Below, piece by piece: positions 62,162 through 64,000 of a stretch of 64,000 nt of DNA (position 1 is the first letter of the stretch; each line of letters begins with the position of its first letter). The stretch covers positions 59,250-123,249 of the forward strand of contig PCWG01000002.1 in the NCBI GenBank assembly GCA_002787235.1. The letters run 5' to 3'. This DNA is from Nitrospinae bacterium CG11_big_fil_rev_8_21_14_0_20_45_15 (GTDB lineage Bacteria; Nitrospinota; Nitrospinia; Nitrospinales; VA-1). Made by a program: the position numbers and the translations under genes. Below the pieces are notes generated by a model, which had not been told where the DNA came from, ran no database searches, and saw only the letters and a list, made by a program, of their open reading frames with translations.

Positions 62162-64000
62162 TTACTGAATTAGAAAATCATCGAATTTGATTTTCTTCAC
62201 CCTTCCTCCACCGGAAATTTTCTTATTGAATGCAGTTATCAGGCGTTTCGTAAGTTTTTCCTTCACATAAAGAATGTCATTGTAGAAACGTCGAGACAGG
62301 AACTGTTCGATCGTTGTCACCATTATTTTTTCATAAACGGGAAGTGCATCGCGCATCAATTGAGCGGTGTCTTCGTCGCTACATTGAACCTCCATCTTGA
62401 AACTTAGAACACGAATATCTGTTACGTTATAGGCAACAGGCATGATGGTGCCCAATGTGACAGATGAATTGCGAACAGTGAGTGCCGCCGCCAATCCTTC
62501 GCTGGTCTTTTCTTCTCCTGATGCGTCTCCGGTTTGAACGGCACCTTCGAGTGTGGATGATGCCTCCAATTCCTTTGCAATGTCGGACTTGTTATCGGTT
62601 TCGGCTCCAAGAACCGCTACCGGTTTTTTCTGCTCTTTAGCGGAAGCTTCGCCTGATTTTTTATTTTTAGACTCAGTTTTTGTCGCTTCGGCAGAAGGTT
62701 CTGCTTTTGTCGCATTTTCAGAAGACTCACCTTCTTTGGGTTGAGGTGTCAGCTCTGCTGGAGCGGGCCCTTCAGGTTGAATCAACTTAGCCAATTCGGG
62801 GGGCATGATTGTTTCCAGTCCAAAATACACACCTGCCCCTACCAATGCTAACGCTAGAACACTTCCTCCAGCTACCAATTTTCCTAATAGCGTACTGGGA
62901 ATTGGAATGGGCCCTATCTTTCTCCGGGGTTCTTCTTCCTCATCCTCATCCTCATCCTCATCTTCTTCATCTTCTTCGTATTCGCCGTACTCGTCACCCA
63001 TACCAGGTTCAGCTTCTTCTTCATCCTCACCCTCATCATCATCTTCCTCCTCATCCTCATCGATGGCTCCGCCTTCACCGAAATCATCTACATTTTTGTC
63101 ATCCTTTGTCTCTGTATCGGTTTCCTGAGGATCCGTTTCGGTAGCAACCCCTGCACCTTCTTCGTTGAGCTCGTCTTGTTCAGCAAAAGCGGCGGCCCAC
63201 ATGTCTTCTTCCGGGGCTTCTTCCTCGCCCTCGCCTTCAGTTTCAGAAGCGTCGCCCTTGGTTTTATCGTTGAGCTCGTCTTGTTCAGCGAAAGCGGCGG
63301 CCCACATGTCTTCTTCCGGGATTTCTTCCTCGTCTTCGCCCTCGGCTTCGGCTTCGGTTTCAGAATCATCGCCCTTGGTTTTATCGTTGAGCTCGTCTTG
63401 TTCAGCGAAAGCGGCGGCCCACATGTCTTCTTCCGGGATTTCTTCCTCGTCTTCAGCTTCCTTTTCGTCTGTGTCTTCTACTAGCGGGGAAGGCTCGTCG
63501 TCTGATGTCTCGCCATCTTCATCCATGATGTCGTCTAAAAGATTGTTCAATTCTTCGTTATCGTCCTCGGCCTTAGCTGATTTGGATGGGCTTGCTTTTG
63601 TTTTTTGAGTCGAAGGTTTTTGTTCAACTTCCTCTTCTTCCATTATTCCATCCAGAATGTTATCAAGATCATCGTCGGTTTCAGAGTCTGCAACGGCTGT
63701 GGGAGGTGTTCCAGAGTCCTCGCTTTGCATTTGAGCTGAGTTCCCCGCAATATCCCGAACGGTTGATGAGGTCTTTAGATTTCTTTCAGCAGAACCTTCT
63801 TCTGATTCTTCGGACATGATGTCGTCCATGAGACCATCGAGGTCCATGTCTTCCGAGCTGGCGGATTCGCTGACAGGTGTTTCTTCTTCAGGCTCAGAAG
63901 TTTCTTCGATGTCATTCGCCATGATGTCGTCCATGAGACCGTCGAGGTCCATGTCTTCCGAGCTGGCGGATTCGCTGACAGGTGTTTCTTCTTCAGGCTC
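62162..64000 (-). CDS. FliL-like membrane protein with long acidic motif-repeat region (5' end outside window)
   Basis: The frame is open to the right edge, so the track's start at 63952 is only an internal Met. The visible ~612 residues have three parts. First is ~370 very acidic residues with repeated motifs: LDGLMDDIM twice plus LDNILDGIM and LNNLLDDIM, then three copies of PEEDMWAAAFAEQDELN. A membrane segment follows (KLVAGGSVLALALVGAGVYF). The C-terminal domain (FKMEVQCSDEDTAQLMRDALPVYEKIMV, KLTKRLITAFNKKI) resembles FliL, which supports the flagellar stator. By FliL topology the acidic part would be cytoplasmic. The motifs recall N-termini of FliM (EIDALL) and FliN (DDLWAEALSEQ), from memory. 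If not flagellar, it is a FliL-domain protein of unknown role. Confidence 0.72.
   Translation of the reverse strand, partial: EPEEETPVSESASSEDMDLDGLMDDIMANDIEETSEPEEETPVSESASSEDMDLDGLMDDIMSEESEEGSAERNLKTSSTVRDIAGNSAQMQSEDSGTPPTAVADSETDDDLDNILDGIMEEEEVEQKPSTQKTKASPSKSAKAEDDNEELNNLLDDIMDEDGETSDDEPSPLVEDTDEKEAEDEEEIPEEDMWAAAFAEQDELNDKTKGDDSETEAEAEGEDEEEIPEEDMWAAAFAEQDELNDKTKGDASETEGEGEEEAPEEDMWAAAFAEQDELNEEGAGVATETDPQETDTETKDDKNVDDFGEGGAIDEDEEEDDDEGEDEEEAEPGMGDEYGEYEEDEEDEDEDEDEEEEPRRKIGPIPIPSTLLGKLVAGGSVLALALVGAGVYFGLETIMPPELAKLIQPEGPAPAELTPQPKEGESSENATKAEPSAEATKTESKNKKSGEASAKEQKKPVAVLGAETDNKSDIAKELEASSTLEGAVQTGDASGEEKTSEGLAAALTVRNSSVTLGTIMPVAYNVTDIRVLSFKMEVQCSDEDTAQLMRDALPVYEKIMVTTIEQFLSRRFYNDILYVKEKLTKRLITAFNKKISGGGRVKKIKFDDFLIQ
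63164..63437 (-). repeat. Three near-identical copies encoding EEDMWAAAFAEQDELN
   Basis: The DNA unit (GTTGAGCTCGTCTTGTTCAG onward on the plus strand, about 50 bases) occurs near 63164, 63269 and 63386 with very few changes. The high DNA identity indicates recent duplication or gene conversion, with Glu/Asp-rich linkers of different length between copies. Confidence 0.8.
63815..64000 (-). repeat. 105-bp tandem repeat encoding LDGLMDDIM units
   Basis: An 81-base block at 63815-63895 recurs at 63920-64000 with one difference visible, giving a 105-base (35-codon) period. The array probably continues beyond the right edge. More diverged relatives of the same motif lie near 63521 and 63641. Confidence 0.85.

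Follow-up and report, generated by a model that had tools for sequence, protein, structure and literature searches.

FliL is a single-pass membrane protein with a short cytoplasmic N-terminus and an SPFH-like periplasmic fold (PF03748), and FliL proteins form a ring around the stator. The N-terminal peptide of FliM (LSQxEIDALL), found as one copy at the start of this C-ring subunit, is the classic chemotaxis input to the motor and also the contact of FlhG, the regulator of flagellar number. CheY binds the EIDAL motif of FliM (PMC6946799), and FlhG binds FliM/N via the FliM N-terminus (PMC12826062). FlhF is recruited to the pole by HubP/FimV/FipA (PMC12826062), and HubP, whose acidic cytoplasmic repeats vary in number, brings in FlhF and FlhG as well as the chemotaxis complex (PMC12918733, PMC8789113). 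For the FliN N-terminus, a literature search found no description of its role, subscription papers being mostly outside its reach.

We analysed a window of 64,000 nucleotides (C38:59250-123249) from a genome of 45 contigs and 3.37 Mb that belongs to Nitrospinota, a lineage of marine nitrite oxidisers. At its right edge lies a gene encoding a membrane protein, here called the hub protein, which resembles FliL at its C-terminus and carries repeated short motifs in a long cytoplasmic part (Table 1). The reading frame noted in the preliminary description is real and open to the edge, with the correction that C38 terminates exactly there and that the gene is truncated. Contig C32 of this genome carries the missing N-terminal part at its extreme end, and the ends of the two contigs overlap exactly over 39 bp, within the hub-gene repeat. 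The C32 piece, whose translation reads MRIDCPSCKAVYDVELPG...CAKCQNKFTV..., then DQDLDSLLSNIMDEE and DMDLDGLMDDIM, adds a zinc ribbon and further LD motifs to the window protein. Because the break in the assembly falls within the repeats, the hub gene does not start at the ATG at 63952, which is internal, and the motif counts for the window cover the C38 part only. The hub genes of several relatives likewise break in repeats, leaving open 5' ends; in a relative of the same genus with an intact start, the hub protein has 919 aa.

Table 1. Features of the hub gene in the window (window positions).
Feature	Position	Strand	Details
Hub protein CDS (FliL-fold)	62162..64000	-	612 codons; 5'-truncated by contig end
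FliL-like domain, predicted periplasmic	62165..62464	-	Pfam FliL stretch 62165-62416, PF03748 E 0.0048
Single membrane helix LVAGGSVLALALVGAGVYF	62822..62878	-	hydropathy 2.02; RRK on N-terminal side
Poly-acidic tract ahead of membrane helix	62903..63103	-	
W motif EEDMWAAAFAEQDEL, copy 3	63167..63211	-	FliN_N-like
Tandem repeat with W motifs	63223..63454	-	117-bp (39-codon) unit, 2.0 copies
W motif EEDMWAAAFAEQDEL, copy 2	63272..63316	-	FliN_N-like
W motif EEDMWAAAFAEQDEL, copy 1	63389..63433	-	FliN_N-like
LD motif ELNNLLDDIM	63524..63553	-	
LD motif DLDNILDGIM	63641..63670	-	
LD motif DLDGLMDDIM	63815..63844	-	
LD motif DLDGLMDDIM	63920..63949	-	

From the N- to the C-terminus, the protein is composed of a zinc ribbon, an acidic tail with LD and then W motifs, the poly-acidic tract, the membrane helix and the FliL-like domain. 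The zinc ribbon is of the MJ0042 type (CxxC-CxxC; Zn_ribbon_4 1.2e-10, MJ0042_CXXC 1.2e-9) and is present in 32 of 36 full-length relatives. Asp and Glu make up 41% of the cytoplasmic part, whose tail is probably disordered. The RRK preceding the helix suggests an N-in/C-out topology, which would place the C-terminal domain in the periplasm. Thus, where FliL has only a short cytoplasmic N-terminus, the hub protein would expose hundreds of residues bearing a zinc ribbon and peptide repeats. GltJ/AgmX of Myxococcus gliding is likewise a membrane protein with a cytoplasmic N-terminal MJ0042 zinc ribbon; orthology with GltJ was rejected, since the match is confined to the zinc-ribbon end (NF033761, 22.6 bits versus a cut-off of 450).

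With a Pfam FliL score of 17.8 bits, under the 24.6-bit cut-off, the window protein is a distant member of the FliL superfamily; Pfam FliL matches 22 of the 36 full-length relatives at E <= 0.01, and an NCBIfam search of the window ORF assigned no family. We modelled the C-terminal 129 residues with AF2, using 34 relatives as input (mean pLDDT 77), and obtained the order bb-aaa-b. Among solved structures, Foldseek matches this model best to the FliL proteins of Helicobacter, Campylobacter and Vibrio (E 3.4e-5 for HpFliL, 7sgn). In VIA-align, FliL structures reach Z scores of 12.7 (7sgn), 11.4 (6ahq) and 10.6, while the next fold that is not FliL scores 8.1, with Helicobacter FliL as the top structural match. 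In the tree, the hub family branches apart from canonical, fliM-linked FliL with 100/100 support, although E. coli FliL and the genome's own second FliL are on very long branches whose exact placement is unsure. Fold and phylogeny therefore back the FliL-like C-terminus of the preliminary description, even if the Pfam score is below cut-off. On sequence grounds, the hub proteins are one family separate from canonical FliL. Genomes with a hub protein have canonical FliL too, and the source genome encodes two further FliL, the first adjacent to fliM-fliN and the second on C26. We found no zinc-ribbon FliL, FliL with switch peptides or FliL paralogue of such a plan in a literature search from which subscription papers were mostly out of reach; the plan of the protein appears to be new, its membership of the FliL superfamily being the known part.

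The three W motifs had been likened to the N-terminus of FliN, and this likeness is upheld in both directions. Pfam FliN_N (PF16973) matches the window protein over three stretches (E 3.5e-5, 24.1 bits versus a cut-off of 24.0) and 19 of the 36 full-length relatives, the best at 4.5e-18. In the reverse direction, a profile built from 93 W instances of the family ranks E. coli FliN (DDLWAEALSEQ, compared to EEDMWAAAFAEQ in the hub protein) first among 2157 ORFs, with an E value of 8.9e-4 versus 0.39 for the next. The consensus across the family is [DE][DE]D(L/M)WAxAFA(D/E)Q, and W, A+3, F/L+4 and Q+7 are conserved across families. Across 57 members, the cytoplasmic parts contain 107 instances of the pattern W..A[FLM]..Q, compared to 0.09 in composition shuffles. 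When 120 whole genomes were searched with FliN_N, the matches fell almost exclusively on the hub protein, several per gene, and were above cut-off in 17 genomes. Hub proteins have between 0 and 7 W motifs and no SPOA domain, whereas FliN in this phylum mostly has no such motif: among the Nitrospinota FliN examined, it is present only in two genomes of family f9 (G073 and G074), with ISWEDAAADLEKQ N-termini (L173, L171). The hub protein of G074 is without W motif and none was found in G073, and the W peptide may have been relocated between FliN and the hub protein, a pattern seen in very few cases.

The LD motifs called for a more indirect reading. All four LDxLxDxIM motifs noted beforehand are present, and the LDxLLDxI pattern occurs 97 times in Nitrospinaceae, compared to 0.33 in shuffles. 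On evidence from the lineage of the window alone, their likeness to the FliM N-terminus is indistinguishable from chance, as the LD-repeat profile fails to single out FliM (among 2157 ORFs, E. coli FliM ranks 11 with E 20, and the CheZ tail ranks 5 with E 12). The FliM N-terminus of the source genome itself reads VLSQSEVDALLRGV. The likeness is regained through relatives. Two deep Nitrospinota members carry SQDELDxLF/W repeats, G064 (L067) with GGISQSDLDQLF, IISQDELDKLWGAAVTEQ and VISQEELDGLF, and G068 (L066) with INQDELDNLWAEA and eleven repeats of the ELDSLFDEMPE type; three SQDELD(D/S)(L/M)FD occur in L117, whose deposited record is a Nitrospinota MAG. With plain FliM patterns, which were picked after the motif had been seen and compared with shuffles, 16 distant relatives show canonical motifs (SQDDIDALL type; LVSQGDIDALLAGS, VISQDDIDALFGDD, ASGQDDIDAIFSAN) at 80 sites versus 0.3 in shuffles. 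In one of them, G279, the first two of these are among 10 copies, and SQDDIDALL/F repeats are also found in G138. The pattern SQ.E[ILV]D is found in 0 of 2149 background ORFs. Because deep relatives carry canonical motifs at the corresponding place in this protein, we infer that LDxLLDxI in Nitrospinaceae is a derived FliM-type motif. FliM has one copy, whereas the hub protein has many on a membrane protein and no FliM domain.

The patterns had replaced a FliM-N profile, which gave no separation when run against the hub family and did not place L117 among the best matches, probably owing to a short profile and acid-rich targets. PDB sequence searches with the LD and W motifs gave nothing useful. 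Chance or low complexity as the source of the motifs was ruled out by the shuffles of the W, LD and FliM patterns, and four shuffles of the tail gave no Pfam match even at E 10.

We also observe what looks like a FliM motif passing into a W motif in IISQDELDKLWGAAVTEQ, and FliM-type and FliN-type peptides that merge in IINQDELDNLWAEAKAEG (L066, G068). This continuity suggests that the two switch peptides may be related and belong to one motif class.

Within the class (Nitrospinota), 57 of 77 genomes have a hub protein, and a further 16 genomes with one are more distant, adding at least one more lineage of bacteria. A profile search across 387 genomes yielded the long proteins of G138 and G279 outside the class, and a search around G138 brought the total to 16, one of which (G409) shares the contig of L117. 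Besides arrays of FliM motifs, the distant relatives have a FliL-like end and a membrane helix; most of those with a covered start also have a zinc ribbon. The hub protein tracks flagella. FliM or FlhA is present in 54 of 57 genomes with the hub protein, versus 11 of the 20 that have none (Fisher p 1.4e-4; p 0.0015 at completeness >= 80%, and 0.24 at >= 90%, where cases are few), the relatedness of the genomes inflating the significance of these p values. Nine of the 20 hub-less genomes are without both FliM and FlhA. The single high-quality exception, G065, retains only a C-terminal hub remnant and has neither FliM nor FlhA. FliM was found in all three distant genomes tested (G138, G279 and that of L117). 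Five flagellated genomes of at least 80% completeness have no hub protein (G009, G010, G038, G039, G073), which suggests that the protein may be inessential to the motor. Motifs are absent or almost absent in members of f8/f9 (G067, G069, G074). CheW is encoded in 51 of the 77 genomes of the class, including the source genome.

Two irregular genes came up in this survey. In G009, which is 98% complete, FlhA (C5:292151-293624) is split into two parts, both of which contain an in-frame TGA, and FliM is intact; its flagella may be decaying. In G138, the hub gene (L191:1820-4086) is in two overlapping frames within the FliM-motif repeats, which could reflect a sequencing error, slippage or a true frameshift.

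No flagellar genes adjoin the hub gene, and the flagellar setting looked for in the preliminary description was found elsewhere in the genome, with fliL-fliM-fliN, flhA-flhF-flhG-fliA, flhB, fliR, fliP and the second fliL, several of them named from sequence. To the left of the hub gene are rplU, rpmA and obgE, convergent with it. Past its start, on C32, are divergent genes for a lytic transglycosylase (SLT), a small CxxC protein and a FimV_N-LysM-SPOR protein; 25 loci contain the transglycosylase cluster, and 19 contain the FimV-like one. A divergent SLT gene also adjoins the hub gene in G138, G279, G398 and G405, which indicates that this pairing predates the Nitrospinaceae context. The FimV-like neighbour matches PF25800 (5.8e-9) and, below cut-off, TIGR03505 (2.5e-5). 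In this protein (L046:7527-9677, G000 C32), FimV_N is followed by FimV_core/LysM, an NTF2-like region and two SPOR stretches, with no evident cytoplasmic part, and it may represent the periplasmic half of FimV/HubP standing alone near the hub gene.

We propose, with middling confidence, that the hub protein is a FliL-anchored flagellar docking array which concentrates CheY-P, FlhG or both at the base of the flagellum or at the pole. These two partners are suggested because the FliM peptide is their known docking site. The source genome encodes FlhF, FlhG and FliA, as well as CheW. The FliL-fold domain and membrane helix, as judged from sequence and predicted fold, would most likely put the protein within the FliL/stator ring or else at the pole that bears the flagellum, where its zinc-ribbon-capped acidic tail would display many FliM/FliN N-terminal peptides. 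Such an array would most likely raise local CheY-P near the C-ring and so tune switching, and/or raise local FlhG there and so control C-ring assembly and flagellar number; in Nitrospinota it would have been partly rebuilt with FliN-type W peptides. A more specific version, which we put forward only tentatively, is a FliL-derived multivalent scaffold in the motor ring, with tens to hundreds of FliM/FliN docking peptides around the C-ring and a stator-side concentration or partitioning of CheY-P/FlhG. If a docking array is correct, the hub protein would give CheY-P/FlhG a second site, fixed in the membrane, and the rotor alone would be insufficient to describe signalling or flagellar counting. 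The protein would also offer a handle on the role of the FliN N-terminal peptide, displayed here alone, in tandem and away from FliN.

The docking array competes chiefly with a polar landmark similar to HubP/FimV, from which it differs mainly in location: acidic repeats outside the motor would recruit FlhF/FlhG and chemotaxis arrays, the nearby FimV_N-LysM-SPOR protein being the wall-binding half of a "split HubP". HubP/FimV is likewise a membrane protein in a flagellar setting, and its cytoplasmic region is also long and acidic, with repeats that vary in copy number; besides the FimV-like gene itself (FimV_N, FimV_core LysM and SPOR, 19 loci in Nitrospinaceae), the genome encodes FlhF, FlhG and a FipA-like DUF2802 protein. 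Nevertheless, no LysM or FimV TPR was detected in the hub protein with Pfam/NCBIfam; it has a FliL fold and zinc ribbon instead, and the order of its parts is reversed end to end. Moreover, the FimV-like gene is absent beside the hub gene in g14 (family f2), G047 and the other lineages sampled, and the synteny in Nitrospinaceae may be plain vertical inheritance. We consider a landmark rather unlikely. A role as a CheY-P buffer or sink, where the motifs keep CheY-P off FliM and set a threshold or adaptation time with no stator or landmark function, would make use of the many CheY-binding-type motifs per molecule. An exploratory comparison within family f1 points the same way, W motifs being found in 22 of 25 genomes with CheW versus 1 of 4 without it (tails >= 140 aa), but this association is weak, and both phylogeny and the incompleteness of MAGs confound it. 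Three g14 genomes (G060, G062, G063) have W-like motifs without CheW, and a FliL-fold anchor is hard to account for in a sink, which makes this role improbable.

The divergent SLT gene, common to Nitrospinaceae and other lineages, could instead point to a factor for flagellar or trans-envelope assembly, coupling the local opening of peptidoglycan by the transglycosylase to motor insertion, with the peptides holding C-ring subunits or chaperones. The SLT protein does match the flagellar-assembly transglycosylase model NF047373 (E 6.8e-21), although below cut-off; SLT domains are widespread, however, and divergent orientation is not co-transcription, so we regard an assembly factor as very improbable. 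Finally, the low complexity of the acidic tail and the great variation in W copy number would fit a fast-evolving acidic linker, whose FliM/FliN likeness is convergence without binding. The conservation of the four W-motif positions across families argues against such a linker, as do the presence of two switch-peptide types in one family, the canonical SQDDIDALL in other lineages and the near absence of motifs in shuffles; we give it hardly any credence.

Two other loci contain FliL-like proteins in unusual company. An accessory cluster on C26 of the source genome (L013:7226-10564, G000) encodes a C-terminal piece of FlhB (94 aa), a FliK-like protein, the DUF2802/FipA-like protein and the second FliL. 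In G030, a 434-aa protein (L193:2252-3556, C33) has a signal peptide, an apparent peptidoglycan-binding N-terminal part and a FliL-like end, and its gene lies beside that of an OmpA-like protein.
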